Virus record (IMG/VR): IMGVR_UViG_3300029319_000192
Coordinates: 1 to 35,645 of that record
DNA: 35,645 nucleotides
Origin: a virus
Strand: one strand, 5' to 3'
The position numbers and the translations under genes are program-made. The notes below the pieces were generated by a model that did not search any database, was not told the DNA's origin, and was given only the letters and a program-made list of their open reading frames with translations. The stretch's first letter is position 1. The number at the start of each line of letters is the position of its first letter. Below, piece by piece: positions 5,719 through 34,030 of this stretch.

Positions 5719-7836
5719 TTAAAGCGCTGCAATGATGAAGGCGAGAAGCTCGCTGTACCGTACACCCATGCGGCTCCGCTCTTCGCCAGTTTCTTCGTCG
5801 GTCCAAGTGCTATGAATGAACATAGCGTAGCGACCAGCGTCTAAGCCTTGAGCTTCAAAAGCTGCCTGCAGGTCTTGGGCAATGATGCCAAAGTGAATGC
5901 GGGCGTCGTCGCCTTTCTCGGCCACCGAGTCTTTCCATCGAAACTTACGCAAAAGGCCCTTAGCGGCTACGGCTACGCGACGCTCAGCTTCGTCAAGCTC
6001 CGCGATGTCTTGCTTCTCGTTAGCGTCGGAGGTCTGGATGGTGCCGTTGGTGGCAAAGATGTCGTCATAGCGTTTTGATGAAGTCCCCAAATCATACGAG
6101 TTGTCTGTGATGGGGAATAATGCAGTGGCGCCTAAAGATAATTTTTGTGTGCCATTCTCTGATAGCACTACGTTGTTACCGTCGATAACTAGCTCACCAC
6201 TAGATGACCCGATACTCCCGACCGTGGTGCCGTCACGTCGAAACTGTAAAATATCTCCATCGTCAGTGAGCCGGTCAAAGTGGGCAACAACCCCACTATC
6301 GCGCTTTTGAATAGACACGCCCGATGCAAGCTGCGTCAGCCCGCTAAAGGTAGAAGTGGTTACGTGAGCGACGCTAGTCCCCACCAGAAAGTTCCTATCG
6401 TGGTCGAGGCGCATACCTTCAACTGGATTGGCGCTTGTGGAGTTTGTTGCAAAAACCAGCCCCGTGTCATTCCTTGACGAGTTGAAGTTTGTTGCTTCAC
6501 AAACCGCCGAAATGGAGGCAGCAGGTTTGATTGCTTGCGTGCCGCTGCTTTCGCTGGGCGCTTGGAATTGTATTTTTCCAAGGATGTCGCTCGTTGCGCT
6601 TTGAATGGCGGTGTCAGATGTGGAAAGCGTAAGAACGCCGCCTGTCGAGGCTCTTGTGTCTAAAGTGGATAGTGGCGAATTTGTCCCAATCCCGACATCG
6701 CCTGACGCATCAATGCGGGCGCGTTCGGTGCCATCAGTTTCAAAAATAATATTGCTGCCGCTTGTTCCTGTCCCGGCGCCTTCATCACTGCGTATAAATA
6801 AACCACCAGCAGAAGTGTTATATACAATTTGGCCGTATGTATTATTGTCCGTGTCTTCAAGCCTAATAGCGGCGGCGGCGGAAGCGATATGCAAGTTGTT
6901 AGAAGGACTCGTCGTCCCAATCCCGAAGTTGCCGCTGGAGTCAATGCGGGCGCGTTCAGAGCCGCCGGTAGTAAAACCAATCACATCACTGCCCGGCAAG
7001 AACATCCCGGTGTCGGTGTCGTCAGAGTTTGAAAATGAAGGAGTAGCCGCAGCGGAAAGAGCAGCGCGAAGCCTTACACCGTTTGTACCTATGCCTTCTA
7101 TCACATTTGTGGAAGACGTAAACTTGTTCGCGGACGCACCGAAACTAATTTCCCCGGCAACATCTAACGTAACAGAAGGACTCGTCGTCCCAATACCGAC
7201 CCTGTTAGCACTCGCATCAACGAAGAGCGTCCCGCTGTCAAAATTTACATCGTCAGAGGCTGTCAGCGTGGTAAAGCTCCCCGCAGCCGCAGAAGCACCG
7301 CCGATGGTTGCGCCGTCAATGGTGCCGCCGTTGATGTCGGCGGTGGTGGCGGTTAGCGTTGCCGTAGTTAGAGCGGTGGGCTGAAGATCAGCGAAGACAT
7401 CGGTAACGGTAGCGCCCGAACCTCCACCATTAAACTTCAGAACAACGTCTTTGCCGTTGGGGATTTCAAAGTCGTTGCTAGCGTTGTAGGTGCCCTGGAA
7501 GATAATTACGCTTCGGCTACCTGATAAACTGTTTCGGACATGAACAATCTTTTCGGCGTCGTTGGGGGTTAATTGGACAAAAGCAGTGCCGCCCAAGTCG
7601 CCGCCATCGGCAAACTCAATAAACTTGTTCCTTCCGTTTGACGAAGCGCCATTGGTAACCACAAGGGAATTAGGCGACCCCGAAGAGCCCGCACTGGAAA
7701 GAGTGACCGTTATAACGCCGTTTACGGCTTCGTCAATCAGATCAAAGTTGGTATTGGTGGTTGTGCCCCAAGTACCGGACTGCTCTCCAGTCCCGATCTT
7801 CTCAATACCCAGGTTAACGGTATACGTGCTGGCCAT
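5719..7836 (-). CDS. Trimeric tail fibre with C-terminal S74 auto-cleaving chaperone domain
   Basis: 705 residues from ATG 7836 with GAGGA upstream. The N-terminal GTWGTTTNTNFDLIDEAVNG (21-40) is typical of fibre virion-anchoring ends in marine phages. Repeats of the type VGIGTTSPSxxLDV occur at about 213, 304 and 381, with ERARIDxSG linkers, as in triple-beta fibres. The C-terminal 103 residues match Peptidase_S74: SDANEK at 603-608 gives the Ser603/Lys608 pair with the spacing of the known K1F Ser-Lys dyad, followed by FRWKD, HFGIIAQDLQAAF and GVRYSELLAFIIAAL. S74 domains trimerise the fibre and then release themselves. The protein ends right after the last S74 helix, with no trailing coiled coil. 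Likely the receptor-binding fibre. Confidence 0.92.
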   Translation of the reverse strand: MASTYTVNLGIEKIGTGEQSGTWGTTTNTNFDLIDEAVNGVITVTLSSAGSSGSPNSLVVTNGASSNGRNKFIEFADGGDLGGTAFVQLTPNDAEKIVHVRNSLSGSRSVIIFQGTYNASNDFEIPNGKDVVLKFNGGGSGATVTDVFADLQPTALTTATLTATTADINGGTIDGATIGGASAAAGSFTTLTASDDVNFDSGTLFVDASANRVGIGTTSPSVTLDVAGEISFGASANKFTSSTNVIEGIGTNGVRLRAALSAAATPSFSNSDDTDTGMFLPGSDVIGFTTGGSERARIDSSGNFGIGTTSPSNNLHIASAAAAIRLEDTDNNTYGQIVYNTSAGGLFIRSDEGAGTGTSGSNIIFETDGTERARIDASGDVGIGTNSPLSTLDTRASTGGVLTLSTSDTAIQSATSDILGKIQFQAPSESSGTQAIKPAASISAVCEATNFNSSRNDTGLVFATNSTSANPVEGMRLDHDRNFLVGTSVAHVTTSTFSGLTQLASGVSIQKRDSGVVAHFDRLTDDGDILQFRRDGTTVGSIGSSSGELVIDGNNVVLSENGTQKLSLGATALFPITDNSYDLGTSSKRYDDIFATNGTIQTSDANEKQDIAELDEAERRVAVAAKGLLRKFRWKDSVAEKGDDARIHFGIIAQDLQAAFEAQGLDAGRYAMFIHSTWTDEETGEERSRMGVRYSELLAFIIAAL

Positions 7837-7847
7837 TTCTCAATCCT

Positions 7848-8618
7848 CTAAGCCGCAATTTCGGTCCAATCAGGCGTCTGAGCCGCTGTTTCTTGTGACC
7901 AAGACGGACTCTGACTCGGTGTTACCTCTGCCCAAACGGGCGTTTGACTAGCGGCGTCCTCTGCCCAAGACGGACTTTGTGATGGTACTATAGGACTATA
8001 GGACGGATTTTGGTCTGGAACAATTTTACCCCAAACTAAAACAGGGCCAACACTACCGGTAGCCGAGCTGCCTGTTACGTCCACATTGGTGACCGTGGTA
8101 GTGCTTACACTTCCGACACCGCCAGTCGCACTCAGGCCGGTTACCGCAATGGTTTGGCTTAATTGGACTGTGACACTGCCAACCGCGCTGGTGGCAGACA
8201 ATCCAGTAACAGAAACATTTGCTTTTGCTACGACAGTGACGCTGCCGGGGGAGCCGGTAGCCGCTAAACCGCTTACTGAAGCATTGGCGTCTGCGGTGAC
8301 GGTGGCGGAGCCCACCCCACCAGTGCCAGCAAGTCCGGTAACAGAAACATTTGCTTGACTGGTAATAGTGGCACTGCCGACCCCACCGGTTGCTTGAAGA
8401 CCGGAAGGCGAAATATTAGCGTCCGCGGTGACCGTAACGCTGCCCACCGAGCCGGTGGCTTGAAGACCCGTGGTGGGGACATTTGCTGCGGCATCTACCG
8501 TAACCGTGCCAACGGCACCGGTTAGGCCAGGGAGAGCTGCGTCTCCGCCCCAAGGGCCATCACCCCACCCTCCGGCGGAGGAGTTCCAACCTTGAAAGGC
8601 GGCGACTACATCAGCCAT
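7848..8618 (-). CDS. Repeat-containing beta structural protein (seven 22-residue repeats)
   Basis: 256 residues from ATG 8618 (TGATG overlap with the upstream gene). After a Gly/Trp-rich N-terminus (GWNSSAGGWGDGPWGG) come about seven repeats of 20-22 residues of the form GLxATGxVGSVTVxAxANVSVT, between residues 30 and 190. The tail has a second repeat, PSQSPSWxE alternating with AAxQTPxWxE. Alternating beta and Gly turns suggest an extended solenoid or fibre spike. It lies between a small structural protein and the fibre, so is probably an exposed tail or capsid appendage. Function not known. Confidence 0.75.
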   Translation of the reverse strand: MADVVAAFQGWNSSAGGWGDGPWGGDAALPGLTGAVGTVTVDAAANVPTTGLQATGSVGSVTVTADANISPSGLQATGGVGSATITSQANVSVTGLAGTGGVGSATVTADANASVSGLAATGSPGSVTVVAKANVSVTGLSATSAVGSVTVQLSQTIAVTGLSATGGVGSVSTTTVTNVDVTGSSATGSVGPVLVWGKIVPDQNPSYSPIVPSQSPSWAEDAASQTPVWAEVTPSQSPSWSQETAAQTPDWTEIAA

Positions 8619-9067
8619 CAGGCAATCCTGATGATGGCATTACTCGCGTCAGCCGTAGGGAAAACTACAGTGAAGTCGCCCGATGTAGAAGATTTATCTC
8701 CACCAAAATCCAAAACAACCACCGTCGGGTTCGTCACGGAAATGGAGGTGGTATTAGGCGTGGAGTTGTAGATCAAGGCGCCCCGTGCAGTGATCGTGCT
8801 ACTTGAAAAGGTCAGGTCTGAAAAATCCGTCAAAGCGGTGGTTCCGCTGGCAGATGGATCGACGTTGGTTAAAGACCCGCCTCCCGAAGAATACCCCGTC
8901 CCGCTCACCTCGTTGCTAGTCGTAAAAGCAGTCGTCGCTGCGTTAAAGCTAGCGGAGTTGGTGTATAGCGCGAGCTTGAACGTGTCCGCGCCGTTCGCGA
9001 AATCGTGAACACCGAACAAAAGTTCTTTTTTGAACGACGTACACATGAAATTGCCGCTGAAGGCCAT
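8618..9067 (-). CDS. Conserved beta-rich phage structural protein
   Basis: 149 residues from ATG 9067 with AAGGAGA upstream. It begins MAFSGNFMCTSFKKELLFG and has FKLALYTNSASF near residues 30-42, a pattern I recall as very common in marine phage structural modules. It is Ser/Thr/Gly-rich and predicted all beta, ending in a strand (FTVVFPTADASNAIIRIA). Co-located with the repeat protein and fibre; probably a tail or fibre-associated virion protein. The family has no assigned role that I know of. Confidence 0.75.
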   Translation of the reverse strand: MAFSGNFMCTSFKKELLFGVHDFANGADTFKLALYTNSASFNAATTAFTTSNEVSGTGYSSGGGSLTNVDPSASGTTALTDFSDLTFSSSTITARGALIYNSTPNTTSISVTNPTVVVLDFGGDKSSTSGDFTVVFPTADASNAIIRIA

Positions 9068-9068
9068 G

Positions 9069-9362
9069 TCACAGTCTCCTTATGAGTTCAGCCAAGTCTT
9101 TTTGGCCGGCATCAATCAACGCATTGTATACGGTAGTCCGGTCGCTGCGGATGGCTTGCCGCATATAATATTCTAATACTTTTACCATCCGACGGCGAAA
9201 GGCCTTAGCCTGATCGCGAATTACCGGATTTGCGTCGTCAGAGATGGAGATGATCTTTTCCGCACACAGCTCTGCCACTTCTTCTGGGGTAAGACCGCGG
9301 TTTTCCGTGGTTTTTACCTGTACCTGAAACTCAGGATCGAACTGTATGGGGTCTATTTTCAT
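9069..9362 (-). CDS. Conserved helical protein in adaptor/tail region
   Basis: 97 residues, ATG 9362 overlapping the upstream stop (ATGA). Mostly charged alpha-helical after a short N-terminal strand segment (MKIDPIQFDPEFQVQVKTTE). Recognisable blocks are NRGLTPEEVAELCAEKII and NPVIRDQAKAFRRRM. There are no membrane segments or zinc motifs. It is translationally coupled to an adaptor-like gene, suggesting head-tail assembly, but this is inference. Similar unnamed proteins occur in marine phages, from memory. Confidence 0.65.
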   Translation of the reverse strand: MKIDPIQFDPEFQVQVKTTENRGLTPEEVAELCAEKIISISDDANPVIRDQAKAFRRRMVKVLEYYMRQAIRSDRTTVYNALIDAGQKDLAELIRRL

Positions 9363-13383: not shown

Positions 13384-13890
13384 TTATTGATCGGCAAATG
13401 TCGGCGCGGTCGCACCCGTGACAGTGCCAAAAATCTGATAATTCGTGGTGTTGAGACCAACGATAGTCACATCAAAACCAGCAGGGACATTGATCTGGAT
13501 GCTGGAGTTTGAGTTTCCGTCAGAAAACACCGCGCTAACTTCGTTATCCGTATCAAGGAAAGTCACGCCACCAATGTAAAAGTTGGTGTTACCGGGGGTA
13601 ACAATCAAGGCATCGGTTGCATCAGCCGCACCGCCTGCATAAACAAAGCGGAAGATAGAACCAGCAATGGGAGCCGGCAGGGTGTAGGTGTTGTCTTGCC
13701 CACCGTCTGGGACAAGAAGAATCCGGCCGCTGTGCGTAGCATTTGTCAGCGTCACATTACCATCAGCCAAGCTGACGGGACCGTCGCCCAGGGTTGCAAC
13801 TTCCGTGATGGCGCCGGTGGTGCCGTTTTTGCTGACAGCTTTGAAGGTACTTTCAGAACGGACCGGACCGCTGAAGGTGGTGTTAGCCAT
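13384..13890 (-). CDS. Beta-rich capsid-associated (decoration-like) protein
   Basis: 168 residues from ATG 13890 with CAGGAGA upstream. The N-terminus MANTTFSGPVRSESTFKAVS, then ATHSGRILLVPDGGQDNTYTLP, resembles a marine phage protein seen beside major capsid genes, from memory. Gly/Thr-rich and beta-predicted throughout. It is the first gene after the capsid terminator. A decoration or cementing role is likely from position, but not shown by the sequence. Confidence 0.7.
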   Translation of the reverse strand: MANTTFSGPVRSESTFKAVSKNGTTGAITEVATLGDGPVSLADGNVTLTNATHSGRILLVPDGGQDNTYTLPAPIAGSIFRFVYAGGAADATDALIVTPGNTNFYIGGVTFLDTDNEVSAVFSDGNSNSSIQINVPAGFDVTIVGLNTTNYQIFGTVTGATAPTFADQ

Positions 13891-13981
13891 TGAGAATCTC
13901 CTGTCGTGGCTAGTGTCAGACTCAGGTGAGCCTGTCAGGGATCAAGCCCTTTTATACTCTTTCACAAAAACCAACGCAAAT

Positions 13982-24815: not shown

Positions 24816-26267
24816 TCAGTAATAGACTGGAATCCTAACAGAGCTATTCTCGTCCTCCCAGTCATCCGTAGGTAGCTGCACAAAGTTGCCCTGCCGGTAA
24901 CGCATAAGCGCCTGGGTCATGCTATCAACCAAATCATCATGCTCGCCGTTCGGAAACGCCGCCACCTCCTCAATCAACTCATCCGCAAAGGTGGTGTCGG
25001 GGGCCCAAACCATCCCAGCTTCAAGAAGGGGCGAAATCGCATGGACCCGGCTCACCTTGTCATTCCCACGGCTCGGCGTGAAATTAACCACAGGAATGCC
25101 CACCTGACGAAGCTCATGGGTCAAAGGCATACCAGAAGCTTTCGCTTCTACAATTACCGTATCGGGCTCCCAATACTTGTACTCCTCAAGAGCAATCGCC
25201 TTCAATTCAGGGAAATCCCACCGGCCCTTCTTACTATCCAACAGGATAAGGTTCGGGGGGCCCCCATCATGCGGATAGAACACACCCCAGGTGGTAATGG
25301 CCGAATAGTCTGAAGTCTCCCGCCGACTAAACGCCGTATCATAAGACTGGATCACATACTGCAACTGTGGAATGGACTCCTTCTCCCACCGGTTCCACCA
25401 CTCCCGCTTGATAATGGCACTCTCTTCACCAGTAGGGTTTTGCTGATACTGCGCGTTCCACTTGCTGGGAGGTATTGATGCGCGGACCGCGGTCAGGTCT
25501 TCAATGCTCCAGAACTCAGGCCAGCACGGCGTCCCATCATCAAAAATGGCAGGAAGCTCCACCACCTCCCACTGATCCGCTAAGGGGTCTTTAGCCTGCG
25601 CCCTCAAAAGCTGGCCGGTTAAGTCCTTCTCCGACCACCGGGTCTGCACCAGAACAATCGCCCCACCGGGCTGAAGACGCTGCCGGGGGCCCCCGGTGTA
25701 CCAGTCATAGGCAAAATCAAAACCGTTTGCAGACATGGCCGTCTGCTCAGAGTGCGGGTCGTCAATAATACAAAGATCAGCACCACGCCCGGCGAGGTTT
25801 GAGCCAACGCCCACGGCGTAGTACATGCCCCCAGCAGCCGTGTCCCAGCGACCAGAAGCCTTGCTGTCCGCCGAGAGCTTCACCTGCGGGAAGACCTCCT
25901 TGTACTCGTCCGCGTCCAGAAGGTTCTTCGTCTTCCGACCAAAGTTAACCGCAAGCTCCGTCGTGTGCGTCGCTTGGATGATCTTCATCTTCGAGTTGCG
26001 GCCCATCATCCAGGCCGGGAACAGGTAACTGGCGAACTCGGACTTCGTATGGCGGGGCGCCATGTTGATGATCAGACGTTTCAGCTCGCCCCGCGCTACA
26101 CGCTCAAGCTTCTCCGCAATGATGTGATGGTGCCGCCCAGCAATGAACTCGGGCCACATAGCTTTTACAAAATCCAAAAAATTTTCTTGGCAGGCTTCGT
26201 TTCTTTCCAACTGAGCAAGGCGCAGTTGCAGCTTCAGAACGGTCTCGTCGCTTGCGTCTATCCGCAT
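24816..26267 (-). CDS. terL: Terminase large subunit
   Basis: 483 residues from ATG 26267, chosen because GGAGG lies five bases upstream; a longer frame to 26411 has no ribosome-binding site. ATPase domain: Walker A-like MAPRHTKSEF (69-78), Walker B DLCIIDD (164-170), coupling motif around QTRWSE (208-213). Nuclease domain: Asp310 (SYDTAFS), Glu374 (VIVEAKASG) and Asp444/445 (NGEHDDLVDS). It drives DNA into the prohead and cuts it. The small subunit lies 4.2 kb upstream beyond small cassettes rather than adjacent. The palindrome CCAGGGGCCCCTGG overlaps the ribosome-binding region. Confidence 0.95.
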   Translation of the reverse strand: MRIDASDETVLKLQLRLAQLERNEACQENFLDFVKAMWPEFIAGRHHHIIAEKLERVARGELKRLIINMAPRHTKSEFASYLFPAWMMGRNSKMKIIQATHTTELAVNFGRKTKNLLDADEYKEVFPQVKLSADSKASGRWDTAAGGMYYAVGVGSNLAGRGADLCIIDDPHSEQTAMSANGFDFAYDWYTGGPRQRLQPGGAIVLVQTRWSEKDLTGQLLRAQAKDPLADQWEVVELPAIFDDGTPCWPEFWSIEDLTAVRASIPPSKWNAQYQQNPTGEESAIIKREWWNRWEKESIPQLQYVIQSYDTAFSRRETSDYSAITTWGVFYPHDGGPPNLILLDSKKGRWDFPELKAIALEEYKYWEPDTVIVEAKASGMPLTHELRQVGIPVVNFTPSRGNDKVSRVHAISPLLEAGMVWAPDTTFADELIEEVAAFPNGEHDDLVDSMTQALMRYRQGNFVQLPTDDWEDENSSVRIPVYY

Positions 26268-26275
26268 GGAATCCT

Positions 26276-26289
26276 CCAGGGGCCCCTGG
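26276..26289 (-). promoter_or_regulatory. Palindrome overlapping the terL ribosome-binding site
   Basis: CCAGGGGCCCCTGG, a perfect 14-base palindrome, ends at the first two G of the terL Shine-Dalgarno (GGAGG). In RNA it folds as CCAGG GGCC CCTGG and could limit access to the ribosome-binding site. Confidence 0.5.
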
Positions 26290-26441
26290 CGCAATCTATG
26301 ACAGAAAGTCGCATAGATCAAGGTTGGCGAATCTGACCACCAGAGTGGCGAAATTTGCCACTTTCTAGCAAACCTGACGATCAGTAACGCGAATCGTTGA
26401 CTACGCTTCAATAGGCACTATCTATCAACTGTATGGATATA

Positions 26442-26477: not shown

Positions 26478-26814
26478 AAACATGGACCTTGCACCCGTCC
26501 CCCCGCGCGGCGGGCCGCGCGGCGCGATCCGCGGGTCAGTGTGCGCTCACTTCGGCGCATGACCCGATATGCCGGGGCCCCTGGGCGCGATAGTTGCGAA
26601 ATGCAATAGAGACCAGGACAACCGGACCAGGGACCACGGCCCGGGGACCACGGGACGGGGCAACCGGCGGCGAAAAACGGCCGGCGGCCGGCGCTGTTTC
26701 CGCGCGCAGCGGGGGCCAGGGACCACGGGCCAGGGGGCCTGGGCCACGGCCCGGGGCTCGCCGGTAGGTTTCAGAAAGGGAACGGGGCGCGGCCCGGGGC
26801 CGGTTTGCCTGAAC

Positions 26815-26839
26815 AAAAAAAGGCGCCCCGTGGGGCGCC
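26815..26839 (-). terminator. Intrinsic terminator ending cassette A
   Basis: The minus strand has an 18-base palindrome of GGCGCCCC and GGGGCGCC arms followed by TTTTTTT. It lies about 20 bases after the stop of the last small gene and separates the cassette block from the terL leader. Confidence 0.9.
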
Positions 26840-26860
26840 CTGGCCGTGCGAAGGAAAAGG

Positions 26861-27124
26861 CTAGGCCGCAGCGGCGGCCGTCAGTAGATCGTCCAGGCGC
26901 TCGTTAAACTCCGCGAGGGCGCGCTCCCGGCTGGCATGGTAGCCGCCATGATTCAAAGCATCGCGGACAATGCTGAACCGGTGGACGGCCCAGGGATGAT
27001 AGCCCGGGGCTAGGCATAGGGTAATGGCCGCCCCCATGGCCGGGACGGCGTGGATAGCTACCAGGGTAAAGCCCTGGCGCTCCGCTTCGGCGGTAGCGCG
27101 AGCGATGATTTCGGCGTGAGTCAT
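26861..27124 (-). CDS. Small protein of cassette A, unknown
   Basis: 87 residues from ATG 27124, overlapping the upstream stop (ATGA). N-terminal helix (MTHAEIIARATAEAERQGF), a central strand region with PAMGAAITLCLAPGYHPWAVH, and a C-terminal helix ending in five Ala. Soluble; the layout suggests a small alpha/beta fold. It is followed by a strong terminator. No family recognised. Confidence 0.65.
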   Translation of the reverse strand: MTHAEIIARATAEAERQGFTLVAIHAVPAMGAAITLCLAPGYHPWAVHRFSIVRDALNHGGYHASRERALAEFNERLDDLLTAAAAA

Positions 27125-27495
27125 TGGCAGCACTCCCCGTCCCCAAGGGACTCTAGGTATTCATGCAGGCCCATTTCATCCCAACGGTAGGAAGCTTCGG
27201 CCCGGTCCCCCCACCAAGCCCCGTCAACGCATTGCCGGGCGGTGTCGATCCAAATAGTAGGACCGCCGAAGGCCACAAGGATTAGCGCCCCGTGGAATTC
27301 CCTGTACTGATCCGAAAGGCGGCGGATTTCTAGGACGTCCTCTAGCCAGCACCAAGCCGGCATGATTTCATCGCCGGCGGCGCCGTCCTCCGGCTCCCGT
27401 TCGGCCTCGATCCAGGTCTGCCCCGTTTCAAGCTGGCGAGCGATGTTGTCCACCATGCTCTGCAATTCTGAGGTGCTATCTTTTGCGGTGCTCAT
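27121..27495 (-). CDS. Acidic conserved phage protein, cassette A
   Basis: 124 residues from ATG 27495, preceded by CTGGAG. Blocks WCWLEDVLEIRRLSDQYREF, ALILVAFGGPTIWIDT and VDGAWWGDRAEASYRWDE match a family I recall in phages of many hosts, without known function. Trp-rich, acidic, with strands (predicted). It is first in its cassette, downstream of a repeated promoter-hairpin unit. Possibly a host-takeover or regulatory protein, by position only. Confidence 0.7.
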   Translation of the reverse strand: MSTAKDSTSELQSMVDNIARQLETGQTWIEAEREPEDGAAGDEIMPAWCWLEDVLEIRRLSDQYREFHGALILVAFGGPTIWIDTARQCVDGAWWGDRAEASYRWDEMGLHEYLESLGDGECCQ

Positions 27496-27514
27496 TGTTA
27501 AGTGCTCCAGTAGC

Positions 27515-27550
27515 GGCCGCCCCGTGCGGCCATGCGCGCTTTATCCCATA
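27515..27550 (-). promoter_or_regulatory. Repeated promoter-like box and hairpin, unit A
   Basis: On the minus strand: TATGGGATAA (27550-27541), 9 bases, then GGCCGC ACGGG GCGGCC (27531-27515), then the ribosome-binding site CTGGAG before the 27495 start. The same box, spacing, hairpin geometry and loop are seen at four to five other places. It lies right after a terminator, so it must contain the start of the next transcript. Confidence 0.7.
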
Positions 27551-27560
27551 TCCTGGGGGC

Positions 27561-27590
27561 AAAAAAAAGCCCCGGCAAAAGCCAGGGCTT
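27561..27590 (-). terminator. Terminator ending cassette B
   Basis: Minus strand AGCCCTGGC, TTTT loop, GCCGGGGCT (9 bp with one G-U), followed by eight T. It lies about 25 bases after the stop codon at 27615. Confidence 0.92.
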
Positions 27591-27614
27591 CGGGGGAGCG
27601 GCGGCGATCAATCG

Positions 27615-27842
27615 TCACACATTGAAAGTACCCGATTGCCGGGCGGTCCAGCGGCCATAAAAGAGGGCTTGCCATTCCGCGTCAGTTATTGGATAGGCAC
27701 GGCCCGCGCTATCAATGCGTTCGGCGTCCACCAGTACGGCGGCGCTTTTAGTGTCTAGGGGATTTCCCGCCCACCACGCGCTGTAACGGCTTCGGCGGCC
27801 GGGGATAGTGATTTTATGGAAATAGTGCGTTGCGCTTTGCAT
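27615..27842 (-). CDS. Small protein of cassette B
   Basis: 75 residues from ATG 27842; the longer frame to 28016 overlaps the upstream gene and is rejected. The junction GGAGGAATACTGAAATG puts the ribosome-binding site inside the end of the upstream gene. Basic, aromatic-rich (HYFHKITIPGRRSRYSAWWAG), predicted beta. DUF-like but not recognised. The first residues MQSAT match MPSAT of cassette C at the DNA level, but the rest differs. Confidence 0.65.
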   Translation of the reverse strand: MQSATHYFHKITIPGRRSRYSAWWAGNPLDTKSAAVLVDAERIDSAGRAYPITDAEWQALFYGRWTARQSGTFNV

Positions 27843-27843
27843 T

Positions 27844-28041
27844 TCAGTATTCCTCCTGAATCCGGCGACGCGCCAGCGCCCGATAGTCCACCATTTCCTC
27901 AACCCAAAAGCCTCGCGCTTCTGGAAACTCCTGGCTAAGGCTCTCCATTTCGGCGTAAGCCCGGTCCTCGTCAGGATGTTGACGGCAGCTCGGCCGGAAT
28001 TCCTCATTGCACTCATCGCGAGCCATTACGATAAAAGCCAT
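27844..28041 (-). CDS. Small acidic/basic protein of cassette B
   Basis: 65 residues from ATG 28041 with GGGAG upstream. A short N-terminal strand (MAFIVMARDECN) then a helical, charged stretch ending RRRIQEEY. It contains Cys/His but no CxxC. First gene of its cassette, after the repeated promoter-hairpin unit. Function unknown. Confidence 0.65.
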   Translation of the reverse strand: MAFIVMARDECNEEFRPSCRQHPDEDRAYAEMESLSQEFPEARGFWVEEMVDYRALARRRIQEEY

Positions 28042-28059
28042 TTTATTTCTCCCATGGTC

Positions 28060-28096
28060 AGCCGCCCCGTGCGGCTATGTGGGAATGCTCCCATAA
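28060..28096 (-). promoter_or_regulatory. Repeated promoter-like box and hairpin, unit B
   Basis: Minus strand TTATGGGAGC (28096-28087), 10 bases, AGCCGC ACGGG GCGGCT (28076-28060), then TGGGAG before ATG 28041. Box less perfect than in units A and C, hairpin identical in layout. Confidence 0.65.
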
Positions 28097-28105
28097 CGCG
28101 GGCAC

Positions 28106-28136
28106 AAAAAAAAGCCCCGGCGACGGCCAGGGCTTT
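28106..28136 (-). terminator. Terminator ending cassette C
   Basis: Minus strand AGCCCTGGC, loop, GCCGGGGCT, followed by eight T. Nearly the same arms as the terminator at 27561-27590, showing that the two are copies. Confidence 0.92.
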
Positions 28137-28153
28137 CGGCGGAGCGGCGGCGA

Positions 28154-28396
28154 TCAATCGTCAGCATGAAGCCTGATCAATTCATCGGCGGCGGCGTCCA
28201 GAGTATCGAAGGGCCCGGTCCAATCCGTGCAGTCGAGAAACCCCGGAGCGGAGAGGCGCACGTAAATAGCGCCGTGCTCAACGTCCAGGCCTGACTCCAG
28301 CAGCATAAATTCGGTATCGGCATCACACCGAAAAGCTTCGGGCTTCAAAAAGGAATCCGCGAAAGCTTCGCCCATGCGTTCGGTTGCGCTCGGCAT
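28154..28396 (-). CDS. Small acidic protein of cassette C
   Basis: 80 residues from ATG 28396, junction GGAGGAATTCTGAAATG identical in layout to cassette B. Acidic, alpha/beta predicted: LLESGLDVEHGAIYVRLSAP and FDTLDAAADELIRLHADD at the end. No domain recognised. The stop is followed by bases shared with cassette B and a copied terminator. Confidence 0.65.
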   Translation of the reverse strand: MPSATERMGEAFADSFLKPEAFRCDADTEFMLLESGLDVEHGAIYVRLSAPGFLDCTDWTGPFDTLDAAADELIRLHADD

Positions 28397-28397
28397 T

Positions 28398-28589
28398 TCA
28401 GAATTCCTCCGACTCATCTAAGCCCTCTATCCAATCGCCGCAGTGCTCGCAAGGCTGCGAAAAGCTAATTTCCTTGCAGCCGTGCCAACCTTGATAATCG
28501 GCGCTTGTCTGAGCGCAATAATCGGAGCAGTAAATCTCGGCATCCAACATCTCGCCGTAATCGTTTTCGATCAAAACCATGTGTGCCAT
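28398..28589 (-). CDS. Small Cys-rich, probably zinc-binding protein
   Basis: 63 residues from ATG 28589 with TGGGAG upstream. Paired Cys: CSDYC (about 21-25) and CEHC (about 47-50), with WHGC between, suggest one zinc site. Acidic C-terminus ending DESEEF. First gene of cassette C, after the conserved promoter-hairpin unit. Might regulate host or phage transcription, but this is inference. Confidence 0.68.
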   Translation of the reverse strand: MAHMVLIENDYGEMLDAEIYCSDYCAQTSADYQGWHGCKEISFSQPCEHCGDWIEGLDESEEF

Positions 28590-28605
28590 TTCAATTCTCC
28601 CATGC

Positions 28606-28642
28606 GGCCGCCCCGTGCGGCCGTATACCCTTTATCCCATAA
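28606..28642 (-). promoter_or_regulatory. Repeated promoter-like box and hairpin, unit C
   Basis: Minus strand TTATGGGATAA (28642-28632), 9 bases, GGCCGC ACGGG GCGGCC (28622-28606), TGGGAG and ATG 28589. The best copy of the box-hairpin pattern. Confidence 0.72.
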
Positions 28643-28651
28643 CCTCGGCGC

Positions 28652-28680
28652 AAAAAAAAGCCCCGCACTGGCGGGGCTTG
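28652..28680 (-). terminator. Terminator ending cassette D
   Basis: Minus strand AAGCCCCGC CAGT GCGGGGCTT followed by a run of T. A 9-bp stem with 4-base loop; ideal intrinsic terminator shortly after the 28697 stop. Confidence 0.92.
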
Positions 28681-28696
28681 AGCGGAGCGGCGACGG

Positions 28697-29122
28697 TCAA
28701 TCAAAGCGGCCTGCTTTGAAAGCCCCCGTGCTACGGTCACGAAGGGCAGTAATCGCATATTGATAAATGAATAGTTCTAAGTTCCCGTGAGCAAAGCGCA
28801 CCAGGGGCGGCAAGGGCTCATCCCCCTCATGGGGCGAATGATAGACCCCCTCCGGCGATACCGCGCCCTCAAAAGGATAGCTGAACCCACCAAACCGGTA
28901 GGCGGCATCCATGCCTTCGCTGACATTCTCCAGGGTCGGGCCTTCGGCCTTTTCCGTGTTTTCCATCACGGCATTCAAGAAAAACTCAGGGATGATCCCG
29001 CAAGCTTCACGAAGCCTGTCATCCGGCACGGTGGCAAGGTTCTCATCGCCGGACGGGTTCAACTTGTTTTCAAGAAAAACCCAAGCGGGAAGAGGCAGAT
29101 TGTTTTCCGTTGCAGTCATCAT
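28697..29122 (-). CDS. Unknown protein of cassette D
   Basis: 141 residues from ATG 29122, chosen because GGGAG lies eight bases upstream; an in-frame ATG at 29137 is inside the ribosome-binding site. Helical-rich: NLPLPAWVFLENKL, DDRLREACGIIPEFFLNAVM, LENVSEGMDAAYRFGGFSY and LELFIYQYAITALRDRSTG. No cysteine cluster or membrane helix. Single-gene cassette. Not recognised. Confidence 0.68.
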   Translation of the reverse strand: MMTATENNLPLPAWVFLENKLNPSGDENLATVPDDRLREACGIIPEFFLNAVMENTEKAEGPTLENVSEGMDAAYRFGGFSYPFEGAVSPEGVYHSPHEGDEPLPPLVRFAHGNLELFIYQYAITALRDRSTGAFKAGRFD

Positions 29123-29140
29123 TGTCAGTTCTCCCATAAA

Positions 29141-29174
29141 GCCGGCCCCGTGCCGGCCTAGGTTTTATCGCATA
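29141..29174 (-). promoter_or_regulatory. Repeated promoter-like box and hairpin, unit D
   Basis: Minus strand TATGCGATAA (29174-29165), 7 bases, GCCGGC ACGGG GCCGGC (29157-29141), then TATGGGAGA before ATG 29122. The stem differs from units A-C in bases but keeps its pairing and the ACGGG loop. Confidence 0.7.
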
Positions 29175-29183
29175 CCTGTTCCC

Positions 29184-29212
29184 AAAAGAAAACCCCCGCG
29201 CTTGGCGGGGGC
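29184..29212 (-). terminator. Terminator ending cassette E
   Basis: Minus strand CCCCCGC CAAGC GCGGGGG followed by TTTTCTTTT. It starts a few bases after the stop of the 32-residue frame at 29219. Confidence 0.9.
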
Positions 29213-29218
29213 TTCGGG

Positions 29219-29317
29219 CTAGCGGCGCGTCCGGCGCCTGGGTTGTCTACGCTGCCGGGCCTTTTCCACGGCCTCGCGGCCGTAGAACAGTTCGGCAAGC
29301 CATTTCAATAAGAACAT
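29219..29317 (-). CDS. Very small basic protein at end of cassette E (32 residues)
   Basis: ATG 29317 to TAG 29219, with GGAGGAAG directly upstream and a 13-base overlap with the preceding gene. The protein starts MFLLKWLAELFYG, an amphipathic hydrophobic helix, and ends with an Arg-rich tail (RRQPRRRTRR). It lies before a strong terminator, and its junction resembles those of cassettes B and C, which supports translation. Could be membrane-active or RNA-binding; unknown. Confidence 0.5.
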   Translation of the reverse strand: MFLLKWLAELFYGREAVEKARQRRQPRRRTRR

Positions 29318-29988
29318 TCTTCCTCCCGTGGCATAAGCTCCCAAATTTCCGTCCGGTCGGCATGATCAGAAATCACTTCCTCCGGGCGGCCGTTGCTGAA
29401 AATCAACTCTACCCAGCCCAAGTTGTGCGCTCCGTCCCAGAAAATCAGAAGGGCTGAGTCAGTGTGGAACAAGTTCGCCCAGGCCTCGGCATAGTCGGAG
29501 CTGCGACTTACCACCCGCTCGCCGTCGCCCTCGATTGAGTCGATCACGGTCACCTGATACCCGCGATCCTCGGCGGCCGTCAGCATGTCGCGGATGACCT
29601 TGGCCTCGCCCTCGTCCATCCATTTCGGTTTGGGGAATTTTTCAGGGGTTTCTTTTCGGGCGGCCTCCTGGGGCAGAGCGTCAAAAATGACCGGAGTGGT
29701 CTGCAACTTCTCGACCACTATCACATAGTCAACGATAAACTCGCCGTTCTCGTCGGCCCAGGCGTTCTCGTCTTCAGTCCGGCAATAGTTCAGGCACCCG
29801 TCCTCGTCTTGCTCAAACTCAATGCCGGGGAAATGCTCTGGCAGCTCGGCCTTAACGTCCTCGACGTTTTGCCACCATCCCACATCGTAGCCGCACTTAC
29901 TGCAAACATACTCACCCTGGCCTTCCTCCTGACTCCAGCGATGCACCATCATGTCCAGCACTCGCACAACATAACTGGTCTTAGTCAT
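29305..29988 (-). CDS. Acidic protein with CxxC motif, cassette E
   Basis: 227 residues from ATG 29988 with GGGGGAG upstream; the longer frame to 30141 lies in the neighbour. N-terminal part has YVCSKCGYDVGWW (about 27-39), a CxxC half of a zinc ribbon with another Cys further on (LNYCRTED). The acidic centre is followed by YVIVVEKLQ. The second half has EDRGYQVTVIDSIEGD, EAWANLFHTD, LLIFWDGAHNLGWVELIFSN and WELMPREEE, likely a separate alpha/beta domain. No enzyme recognised. Confidence 0.65.
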   Translation of the reverse strand: MTKTSYVVRVLDMMVHRWSQEEGQGEYVCSKCGYDVGWWQNVEDVKAELPEHFPGIEFEQDEDGCLNYCRTEDENAWADENGEFIVDYVIVVEKLQTTPVIFDALPQEAARKETPEKFPKPKWMDEGEAKVIRDMLTAAEDRGYQVTVIDSIEGDGERVVSRSSDYAEAWANLFHTDSALLIFWDGAHNLGWVELIFSNGRPEEVISDHADRTEIWELMPREEECSY

Positions 29989-29998
29989 TTCACTCCCC

Positions 29999-30406
29999 CT
30001 AATACGCAGCGGCAGAAACATTATGGGCGCCCCACTCCGCCGCCACTTTTTCGCGCAGCGCGGAAGCCATGCTGACAAAAAGGCACTCCCCTTTGTGGTT
30101 ATAAGCGTAAGAGATGCCCACGAGGTAACGCATTTTTTCACTGCCCACTTCTTCGATGACTAAGACCTCACCCTCGCAAAGGTGACGCCCTATCTCTTCC
30201 TCACAATCGACCAACTGAACATACTCACCATATTCCTCCGAGTAACTGTGAGGCCCACCCCCGTCCCAAGGACCACAGACAAAACCCACGCGCCCATCCG
30301 TATCGCGGATCAGCTCGCAGTCAAAATCCTCAATGAAGTCCTTAAACGCTTGCTCATCCTTCACGCGCACATAATTGCTGCGGACGCTGCACACATAATT
30401 TGCCAT
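29999..30406 (-). CDS. Conserved protein (CSVRSNYVRVKD start), cassette E
   Basis: 135 residues from ATG 30406 with TGGGAG upstream. The start, ANYVCSVRSNYVRVKDEQAF, then FIEDFDCELIRDTDGRVGF and GPHSYSEEYGEYVQLVDCEEEIGRHLCEGEVLVIEEVGSEKMRYL, matches a family I have seen on plasmids and phages of varied bacteria, function unknown. Alpha/beta, acidic, no membrane segment. First gene of cassette E. Confidence 0.72.
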   Translation of the reverse strand: MANYVCSVRSNYVRVKDEQAFKDFIEDFDCELIRDTDGRVGFVCGPWDGGGPHSYSEEYGEYVQLVDCEEEIGRHLCEGEVLVIEEVGSEKMRYLVGISYAYNHKGECLFVSMASALREKVAAEWGAHNVSAAAY

Positions 30407-30420
30407 TTCACTTCTCCCAG

Positions 30421-30867
30421 TTAGGCCGCCCCGTGCGGCTCGTCTGCGACTCTATGCGAGTCTATGGGGCTAATCAACCCCCAGAGTTCCTCCCAATCGA
30501 ACGGGTAGCTCCAGTAAAGGGCCGGCTCGACATGGAGCCCATTCATTCGGACGTCCAGCGCCTGGGCGCCGCGATAAAGGAAAAGCTCTGACGTTTCCCG
30601 GTTCTCATGGGTGTGCAGCCGACGGACCAGCAGCCAAACGCTCGCCCGCCGGTGAGCCGTCAGAAAAGCCACCTGATGCGGTCGCAGCTCGACGATGGCC
30701 GTGCCAGTGTGCTTCAGCTCAATCAAATGGAAGTTCCCGGCCTCGTCACAAGCCATGACGTCCGGCACCCCGGGGGTCGCCCAGGTTTCAAGCCTCGTCA
30801 GACTGATCCCAGGCCTCGTCTTCTGCGTCCCATCCCTCAGATTCTTCCAGAGCTGCCTCTCCCTCAC
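30421..30867 (-). CDS. PD-(D/E)XK nuclease, VRR-NUC-like
   Basis: About 148 residues from GTG 30867 (AAGG upstream); a longer GTG start at 30996 with GGAGG is possible but would overlap the small terminase gene by 209 bases. The core reads RLETWATPGVPDVMACDEAG, then FHLIELKHTG and LRPHQVAFLTAH: GxPD, ELK and a later Gln/His fit VRR-NUC nucleases. Such enzymes cut branched or flap DNA. Location next to small terminase suggests processing DNA before packaging. The last codons (PHGAA) coincide with the repeated hairpin E. Confidence 0.72.
   Translation of the reverse strand: MRERQLWKNLRDGTQKTRPGISLTRLETWATPGVPDVMACDEAGNFHLIELKHTGTAIVELRPHQVAFLTAHRRASVWLLVRRLHTHENRETSELFLYRGAQALDVRMNGLHVEPALYWSYPFDWEELWGLISPIDSHRVADEPHGAA
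30424..30457 (-). promoter_or_regulatory. Repeated hairpin, unit E (degenerate box)
   Basis: Minus strand AGCCGC ACGGG GCGGCC (30440-30424) has the same loop and arms as units A-C, but lies inside the 3' end of the nuclease gene and has only a degenerate box (CTCGCATAGA) upstream. No terminator precedes it, so cassette E is probably reached also by read-through from terS. Confidence 0.55.
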
Positions 30868-31486
30868 CTGCACCTTCTGAGGGCTCACTCTCGTATCCAC
30901 CAGCGGGAGCGGCGAGTCTTCGGTCCGCTGCATCGTGTGACGGGCTGGCTTCTTCCGGGGCTTCCGGGGTGACGTCGATGATGTTTCCTTGGGCACGTTT
31001 GATTTCCTCCAGGGCTTTGAGTACGTCCTCTTTGCTCATGCTGTCGATACTGCCGTGGCGCACTTCAGACTTGCTGATGTAAATATCGCCATGCGCCTGC
31101 CCGCGCCGGTACTCCGCCTGCACAGCAGCAGAGTAAGCACCGTTTTCCAGGGCTCGATCACGGATGACTTGGAGGTCACGCAGGTGCCTCTCGTAGGTCA
31201 CACCGAATTTGGCGTCCAATTCGCTCCTGAGCGCGTTTATGCGCGCCACCACGTTCGGGTGCTTCCTAGGGTCTGTAAGCTCGTAAGCGCGCTGCGGGGC
31301 ACTCTCCGCGGCATATCCGGCATTCTCCGCCGCTTCCCGCTTCGTAATCATGCCGTCCTTCAGCACAAGCTCCCGCACAAAAGCCTCTTGACGGGGGGTC
31401 AGAGGGCTATCGACGGTCAATTTCTTACGTCCGCGAGTTTCTACCCGGGTAGAATTGCCCCGCTTGTCTGCGATTTGTCTCGCCAT
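30788..31486 (-). CDS. terS: Terminase small subunit
   Basis: 232 residues from ATG 31486 (GGAG nine bases upstream); an ATG at 31501 overlaps that site. After a basic N-terminus: LTPRQEAFVRELVLKDGMITK, KREAAENAGYAAESAPQRAYEL, then YERHLRDLQVIRDRALENG, AVQAEYRRGQAHGDIYISKS and SMSKEDVLKALEEI. This is the small terminase layout as I know it: a helix-turn-helix DNA-binding domain followed by an oligomerisation helix. The C-terminal 60 residues are acidic and disordered, and this part overlaps the nuclease gene in another frame. It recognises the packaging site and recruits terL, here 4.2 kb away. Confidence 0.82.
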   Translation of the reverse strand: MARQIADKRGNSTRVETRGRKKLTVDSPLTPRQEAFVRELVLKDGMITKREAAENAGYAAESAPQRAYELTDPRKHPNVVARINALRSELDAKFGVTYERHLRDLQVIRDRALENGAYSAAVQAEYRRGQAHGDIYISKSEVRHGSIDSMSKEDVLKALEEIKRAQGNIIDVTPEAPEEASPSHDAADRRLAAPAGGYESEPSEGAGEGEAALEESEGWDAEDEAWDQSDEA

Positions 31487-31780
31487 GGGATAAGTCTCCA
31501 TTTTATCGCGTGTAATAAAAACAGCAGCTTAGAGCAACTTCTTGAGTGGTTACCTTTTAGGTTTGGGTCAAGTAACCGAAAAAGTATCCCTCCGATCCCT
31601 TCTAAGTCCTTGTTTATTATATAGAAAGAAAACATAGTTACACGGTTACACCGGTTACGGCCATTTGACGCAAAATTATATTTTTTCTTTTTCTGTCTAT
31701 ATAAAGAGAAAGGCTTTTTGAACCAAGGGCCGTGATCCGTGGCTCCTGATGCGCGCCCCACCATCCCCGCCCCCAAACGC
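31487..31780 (-). promoter_or_regulatory. AT-rich leader of terS with GTTAC repeats and inverted repeat
   Basis: Gene-free. Five GTTAC/GTAAC cores occur (31548, 31572, 31637, 31645 and 31654), three of them closely spaced. They lie partly between inverted arms 31618-31632 and 31689-31703 (TATATAGAAAGAAAA, 14 of 15 matches). A perfect TATAAT on the minus strand (31621-31616) may be the terS promoter -10, with a poor -35. The layout resembles an operator or an AT-rich unwinding element. Confidence 0.5.
31727..31743 (+). repeat. Copy 3 of dispersed 17-mer
   Basis: GGGCCGTGATCCGTGGC in the non-coding region upstream of terS, same orientation as the copies at 21389, 23289 and 34735. Confidence 0.6.
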
Positions 31781-33176: not shown

Positions 33177-33219
33177 TCGACTTGCAAATCGCGCCAACTC
33201 GACTTGCAAATCGCGCCAA
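33177..33219. repeat. Two copies of a 21-bp direct repeat
   Basis: TCGACTTGCAAATCGCGCCAA occurs at 33177-33197 and 33199-33219 (period 22). The core GACTTGCAAATC is itself a near-palindrome. Two protein-binding sites on the same helix face (two turns apart) would fit. No coding capacity. Confidence 0.85.
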
Positions 33220-33626: not shown

Positions 33627-33637
33627 CCGTGTAGCGA

Positions 33638-33754
33638 TGTAGAGGTGTAGAGGTGTAGAGGTGTAGTGCCAACTTTTTCTTTTCTTAATCCTAGGCTTCG
33701 GCTTTGGAATTTTTGATTTTTTAAGAAAAGGTCTACACCTCTACACCTCTACAC
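33638..33754. repeat. 8-bp iteron-like repeats in a large inverted repeat
   Basis: TGTAGAGG is repeated 3.5 times (33638-33666). The reverse complement lies at 33733-33754, giving a perfect 22-bp inverted repeat, with a second inner 10-bp pair (33679-33688 with 33721-33730) and a 32-base AT-rich loop. The right arm includes the TAG stop of the 93-residue gene. Strong cruciform or hairpin; could be a replication origin, terminator or protein array. Confidence 0.85.
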
Positions 33755-34030
33755 AGCTTCTCCTTCTGCGATTGCTGCGTCGTCCTCCTTGAATTTTTCA
33801 AAGCCGGTGTCCACCCCTGCCATGATTGTTTTCCGTGCGACCTCCTCCGACGGAGCCATTGCAAAGCACAGGTGGGAAAAAATGCGGATGGCAGAAAACA
33901 CCACCTCGTAGGGCGGGACGCCGGCGTATGCCATCTCATCTATCCCTTCGAGAAGCTTATCTTCAAAATCATCAAGAGCCTTCCACTGATCCTCAAGCGC
34001 CTGATTTTCAATAACTTTTGCGTTTTTCAT
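33749..34030 (-). CDS. Small acidic helical protein
   Basis: 93 residues from ATG 34030 with AAGGAG upstream; the longer frame to 34057 includes the leader repeat. Acidic, helical: KNAKVIENQALEDQWKALDD, YEVVFSAIRIFSHLCFAM, then FEKFKEDDAAIAEGEAV. The amphipathic middle might dimerise. Its stop codon lies in the large inverted repeat. Not recognised. Confidence 0.68.
   Translation of the reverse strand: MKNAKVIENQALEDQWKALDDFEDKLLEGIDEMAYAGVPPYEVVFSAIRIFSHLCFAMAPSEEVARKTIMAGVDTGFEKFKEDDAAIAEGEAV

Follow-up and report, generated by a model that had tools for sequence, protein, structure and literature searches.

Why does a virus carry, between the genes for its two terminase subunits, a series of differing small genes that are set apart by copies of one composite element? 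The question is raised by the virus record IMGVR_UViG_3300029319_000192, which was analysed over its whole length of 35,645 bases, referred to here as the window. Read along the minus strand, its genes run from small terminase through a VRR-NUC-like nuclease and five small-gene cassettes to large terminase, and the cassettes are bounded by repeated separators. The answer that we consider likely is that the separators are recombining terminator-promoter-leader units in a fixed cargo locus, a reading which draws on the anatomy of the separators, on the differing gene content of related contigs and on separators that are chimeric.

Anatomy of the separators

Sequence reading and a repeat search identified four full separators and one first copy which lacks a terminator; all features of the array lie on the minus strand. 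The full separator, which precedes each of cassettes 2-5, consists of an intrinsic terminator, a sigma70-like promoter, a hairpin with loop ACGGG, a Shine-Dalgarno (SD) sequence and the start codon, and cassette 1 is preceded by promoter, hairpin and SD only. The first separator (30403-30465) sits inside the 3′ end of the upstream nuclease gene, whose last codons run through the promoter (TTGATT-17-TAGAGT) and the hairpin (loop 30434-30430); its assignment comes from a covariance model (56.8 bits) and from the promoter score. Separator A (29120-29215) comprises a terminator at 29215-29189, a box, TATGCGATAAA, at 29174-29164, a hairpin at 29159-29139 (loop 29151-29147), the SD at 29136-29131 and the ATG at 29122. 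The corresponding elements of separator B (28587-28679) are the terminator at 28679-28658, box TTATGGGATAA at 28642-28632, hairpin at 28623-28605, SD at 28602-28597 and ATG at 28589. Separator C (28039-28137), which is chimeric, has its terminator at 28137-28110, box TTATGGGAGCA at 28096-28086, hairpin at 28077-28059, then an SD and the ATG at 28041, and in separator D (27493-27591) the terminator lies at 27591-27566, box ATATGGGATAA at 27551-27541 and the hairpin at 27532-27514, followed by the SD CTGGAG and the ATG at 27495.

This arrangement is not random. Hairpins with the ACGGG loop followed by an SD and a start codon occur five times on the minus strand, never on the plus strand and never in 150 dinucleotide shuffles of both strands, which confirms the repeated separators that a preliminary description had placed here. 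The exact core CCGCACGGGGCGG has four matches in the window, all of them in the array, and the reversed pattern has none; the box TTATGGGATAA, with up to two mismatches allowed, occurs 13 times in the window against 5.2 expected. That description needs amendment in its details. It had given a terminator to every unit, which is true of separators A-D but not of the first (30465-30403). Its box does recur, but in degenerate form (TATGCGATAAA, TATGGGATAAA, TATGGGAGCAT), and its 6-5-6 hairpin retains the ACGGG loop but has a stem of 5-8 base pairs, six not being constant. The array itself is real, but it extends beyond 27496 to its last genes (27495-26861) and to a final terminator that closes it (26820-26841). 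This final terminator and those of separators B, C and D were recovered independently by a terminator search. For comparison, 34 copies of the separator, 25 of them distinct, were drawn from the window and related contigs. T-tailed terminators were present in all 18 non-first separators examined, and first copies lacked one except for one weak match.

Judged by covariation, the hairpin is conserved as a structure. Two-sided compensatory changes were found in four of the six pairs among 20 distinct hairpins, in which 96.7% of paired cells were complementary compared with 78% after shuffling; only the outermost pair of the stem is broken, in some copies, and the fifth hairpin of the window has the compensated stem GCCGGC/GCCGGC. 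The loop ACGGG was constant among these 20 hairpins, a set that had been chosen by its loop, and a covariance model without the loop requirement found more copies, one of them with loop GCGGG. Among the terminase relatives searched that are more distant, the same model recovered nothing convincing, with two matches at E=0.6. The hairpin would most likely serve either to stabilise the 5′ end of the transcript or to keep the SD open.

The box TATGSGATAAA is predicted to be an extended -10 element and hence part of a promoter. An earlier score for the -10 element only was weak, as 86 of 2000 shuffles were equally good. A model that scores -35, spacer, -10 and extended -10 jointly for sigma70 took its place and was applied to the 62 nucleotides upstream of each hairpin. 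By this model 25 of 26 distinct separators had their best sigma70-like site 5-10 nucleotides from the stem, most often at 8 (shuffles: mean 4.1, maximum 10), and the mean promoter score exceeded that of all 400 shuffles. Several forms of the -10 element are seen there: TGnGATAAA, the box of the preliminary description, with the T-run of the terminator serving as a poor -35; TTGCSC-17-TAGCAT/TAGGAT/TATGAT; and TTGATY with TAAAGT, TAGAGT or CATAAT. Because the best site sits at this short distance from the stem, the predicted start of transcription coincides with the hairpin base. The proposal that the boxes are promoters is thus strengthened by the joint score and by position, the promoters being predicted ones. 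The motif TATGSGA, taken on either strand, is about three times denser in the cargo interval, from nuclease to large terminase, than outside it (0.50 and 0.39 versus 0.17 and 0.15 per kb; 20 loci); it overlaps many -10 elements and could possibly be an operator.

Gene content and chimeric junctions in relatives

Separators were found in ten other contigs, including L011, the closest terminase relative of the window; contigs L109-L112 nearly duplicate each other, and L011 is similar to L111. The first searches, with exact DNA patterns of box, loop and SD, had returned six stretches of viral contigs, all of which failed the hairpin test, and in organism genomes 13 scattered matches in unrelated organisms, which do not indicate a host.

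The genes between the separators differ from one contig to another and are re-associated, which, together with the chimeric junctions described below, bears out the claim that different genes occupy the same separators; relatives with constantly the same genes between them, which would have spoken against swapping, were looked for and not found. Cassette 1 (29219-30406) contains genes for proteins of 135 amino acids (29999-30406) and 227 amino acids (29305-29988) and a micro-open reading frame (ORF) of 32 codons (29219-29317). The 227-residue protein is an in-frame fusion, its N-terminal part resembling a separate protein in L106 and its C-terminal part a separate protein in L107, L108 and L092. 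Cassette 2 (28697-29122), a single gene of 141 codons with a 78% homologue in IMGVR_UViG_3300033182_001112 and a related gene in L108, is shared by the window and L107, as is cassette 5 (26861-27495), and is missing from L092, in which its neighbours are joined. Cassette 3 (28154-28589) carries genes of 63 (28398-28589) and 80 codons (28154-28396), and cassette 4 (27615-28041) genes of 65 (27844-28041) and 75 codons (27615-27842). The 80- and 75-codon genes, which belong to separate cassettes here, lie in one cassette of L107 with a gene missing from the window array, and the 65-codon gene, paired here with the 75-codon one, stands alone in L108. Cassette 5 consists of genes of 124 (27121-27495) and 87 codons (26861-27124), and the upstream partner of the latter in the window and L107 differs from that in L108 and L111. 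L107 also has a 202-codon gene as a cassette of its own, L108 an additional cassette with a GP88-family gene, and L111 both DUF932 and GP88 genes.

The separators themselves appear to record exchange. In pairs of separators which share only the upstream gene, identity was 0.75 in the left half and 0.59 in the right (10 pairs); in pairs which share only the downstream gene it was 0.71 and 0.92 (4 pairs), and with neither gene shared the background was 0.64 and 0.61. Likeness in the downstream-gene pairs is therefore strong on the right, with a smaller effect on the left. The separator at 6747 in L107 matches separator C of the window on its left (14:0 informative sites) and separator D on its right (3:14; p=3.5e-6), and separator C matches L107 6747 on its left (19:0) and L108 3321 on its right (4:12; p=2.2e-6), with both switch points falling across the hairpin; these p-values are optimistic, because the triples were chosen by eye before testing. 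A third candidate, L092 4335, whose gene neighbours are joined otherwise than in L107, was not significant (p 0.06-0.18). Furthermore, terminators of one contig resemble each other more than they do those of other contigs (permutation p=0.0005). Some separators are thus visibly composed of two others, and separators look like exchange points.

Similar loci extend across a wider phage group. The succession of small terminase, nuclease and large terminase was seen in about 33 of the first 80 relatives, while most of the remaining contigs do not extend far enough for it to be recognised, and among 61 contigs in which nuclease and large terminase are both visible the gap between them exceeds 1.5 kb in 50 and is below 300 nucleotides in 11. 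The inserts of distant relatives that were inspected contain small genes with their own predicted terminators and promoters. Sites resembling a -10 element, followed by a hairpin and then by SD and start, numbered 147 on the forward and 7 on the reverse strand, an imperfect control as that strand has few genes. One large clade has the loop GGGCAA (20 loci), a covarying stem and a putative promoter CGCATATWAT, and all 10 such sites are followed by a hairpin, compared with a background of 15%. Homologues of the DUF932 gene in both clades share about 58% identity and have different leader hairpins, so that the hairpin goes with the genome and not with the gene. A comparable locus, with more hairpin leaders seen by eye, is present in the public phage record DSL-LC04. 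In another relative, L054, the large terminase ORF (6834-9356) has 840 codons versus 531 in the window; it includes an additional internal segment, which by eye resembles an intein.

Proposed mechanism and its rivals

We propose that the array consists of successive transcription units, each complete in itself and coding for small accessory proteins, which are held between the nuclease and large terminase genes. At each separator the intrinsic terminator would end the upstream unit and the sigma70-type promoter would start the next. The transcript would begin where a short hairpin has its base, and this hairpin would cap the 5′ leader ahead of a strong SD. Separators of co-infecting relatives would recombine, with the help of a recombination enzyme whose action we infer, such that units are added, dropped or swapped, and this would probably be the main route of cassette turnover. 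An exchange would leave expression intact because all units carry similar edges.

Several observations weigh against this explanation. Measured against those of Escherichia coli, the promoters of the window, in which GATAAA is combined with a T-run as -35, are weak; a strict consensus promoter scan of the window reports none of the separator sites. The p-values overstate independence, because separators share ancestry, and every relative that bears an array is a metagenomic contig. Larger genes keep a similar order in the GGGCAA-loop clade, and shuffling is therefore claimed mainly in the clade of the window. Finally, no homologues of RecT, ERF or RecA were found in the few relatives searched, whose records are possibly incomplete.

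The last result would suit a different account, in which separators are kept merely as good regulatory units, illegitimate recombination takes place anywhere and selection for expression does the rest. So would the differences inside cassettes, where second genes have been reassorted and one pair of genes is fused in frame, so that some exchange occurs outside separators. Such an account is on balance unlikely. Against it stand the two chimeric separators, in which the switch across the hairpin is clear, separator halves that agree, left and right, with their own neighbouring gene, and terminators that are alike within a contig. As the array contigs are all metagenomic and separators are repeats, assemblers could also have joined strains at the separators; this we hold to be highly improbable, since the shared tracts of about 15-60 nucleotides are short relative to common read lengths, the same order recurs in contigs of several metagenomes (L109-L112) and the matching halves differ by several percent. 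Equally improbable is an integron-like or nuclease-driven system in which the hairpins are recombination sites, either similar to attC or cut by the adjacent nuclease. Cassettes with hairpins next to a nuclease that resembles Holliday-junction resolvases would invite such a reading, but the RYYYAAC...GTTRRRY pair of attC occurs in none of the 34 separators, on which ground an integron cassette array was rejected, and the nuclease is also present in about 11 relatives without cassettes, which makes it a part of the terminase locus and unlikely to be specific to the array.

A further alternative concerns the role of the hairpin and is compatible with recombining units. The hairpin might be an RNA operator whose loop is read by a phage protein that controls translation or antitermination of all units jointly. 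The loop is nearly invariant in the clade of the window (ACGGG, one GCGGG) over a stem that varies with compensation, the other lineage has the loop GGGCAA in 20 loci, the DUF932 leaders differ between clades, and the locus encodes a conserved arginine-rich micro-protein. We nevertheless judge an operator unlikely, as no lambda-like boxA motif was found, a stable 5′ hairpin would by itself account for the structure and the binding protein is only hypothetical. More doubtful still is the idea that each lineage's loop (ACGGG, GGGCAA and others) is a shared address, read on every cassette by a lineage-matched phage factor, perhaps the arginine-rich micro-protein at the end of the first cassette; if so, a swapped-in cassette would need the matching loop to be properly expressed, and the separators of any one genome would be homogenised. 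This micro-protein (29219-29317, minus strand; isoelectric point 11.9), easily overlooked in annotation, belongs to a family of about 30-41 residues (consensus like MFLFxWLxxLLYGxD...RRxxRRRR) that is conserved across the phage group, with more than 50 matches in other loci.

Locus borders and comparable known systems

The locus is bordered on the left by the terminase small subunit (30788-31501, minus; phrog_51, E=1.8e-12) and on the right by the large subunit (24816-26411, minus), which was assigned by tblastn to annotated phage large terminases at up to 64% identity, the closest being those of Pelagibacter phage HTVC027P, phage 023Pt_psg01 and Phage DSL-LC04; blastn of the window against annotated phages gave no match. 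The nuclease (30421-30996, minus) is a small PD-(D/E)XK protein similar to VRR-NUC and Hjc, recognised by its conserved core R.E..A.PG.PD...E(L)K...PHQ and by synteny. VRR_NUC was matched by 9 of 15 members of its family (best E=7e-4), the protein of the window itself having no Pfam match. The small terminase and nuclease ORFs overlap by about 200 nucleotides in different frames (30788-30996, minus), an overlap retained in close relatives. Directly upstream of the large terminase, 26500-26815 is GC-rich and non-coding, with repeats like CGTGGTCCCTGG and comparable stretches in relatives. Elsewhere, tandem GTGTAGAG units and a perfect 22-nucleotide inverted repeat lie at 33629-33764, and two perfect copies of TCGACTTGCAAATCGCGCCAA, one base apart, at 33177-33219. 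Rfam models had no match at the array, the only one in the window being Mu-gpT-DE (13888-13940, minus). As to the cargo, PADLOC found no defence match among ten proteins. The 87-residue protein is predicted to adopt an alpha-beta4-alpha fold (predicted local distance difference test 92), for which small uncharacterised phage proteins were the sole matches (E about 0.002-0.05) and comparison with solved structures gave no match at E<=0.001; a 112-residue protein gave a poor model.

The preliminary description knew of no described phage system of this form, but precedents exist. The most direct are the promoter early stem-loops (PeSLs) of T4-like phages. They have been described (Arbiol 2010; Comeau 2014, cited in PMC4503421) as composite promoter-terminator motifs, reiterated between small variable genes, and are proposed to mediate modular shuffling. 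The separators resemble them, by sequence, in this composite of promoter and stem-loop or terminator, and the flanking genes are likewise shuffled between related genomes. Nevertheless, the present phage is not T4-like by its terminase, the sequences seem unrelated, the separator has, beyond its promoter, a leader hairpin that covaries and an SD that is conserved, and the array is confined to one locus, from nuclease to large terminase. To judge by its sequence, the array functions in the manner of PeSLs, but its lineage is a different one.

Cluster K mycobacteriophages carry, ahead of many genes that are unrelated to each other, the repeated elements SAS/ESAS, in which an SD-like sequence at the start site is joined by an upstream inverted repeat and a SigA-like promoter; these have been suggested as targets of homologous recombination (PMC3203893, PMC11373665). 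The separators share with them a sigma70-like promoter, by sequence score, adjoining an inverted repeat, but SAS/ESAS are dispersed through the genome, differ in sequence and are not described as including a terminator; the 13-bp element GGGATAGGAGCCC of cluster K has one chance-level match in the window, away from the separators. In the archaeal virus HGTV-1, motifs of a TATA box and an inverted repeat precede most ORFs of one genome half and were proposed to act in regulation and shuffling (PMC3950731). A promoter-like box with an inverted repeat and the same proposed role are thus found in both, the promoter and host of HGTV-1 being archaeal.

Morons are accessory genes of temperate phages with their own promoter and terminator. 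The term is used in PMC7067206, and the likeness, as seen in the sequence, lies in genes with predicted promoter and terminator of their own inserted between conserved genes; the array differs in that a series of such units stands in tandem and their edges are alike.

Two questions become testable through the constant place of the locus beside the terminase and through loops that differ by lineage: are the separators genuine sites of exchange, and do the hairpins amount to an expression code peculiar to each lineage? The separator profile also offers a route to small accessory genes that ordinary annotation cannot name. Compared with these systems, the array is apparently an independent variant of shuffling separators in a fixed locus of a little-studied phage group, which shows that phages other than the T4-like ones apparently trade accessory genes, too, in the form of whole transcription units via conserved separators, with evidence of the exchange at the level of the junctions.

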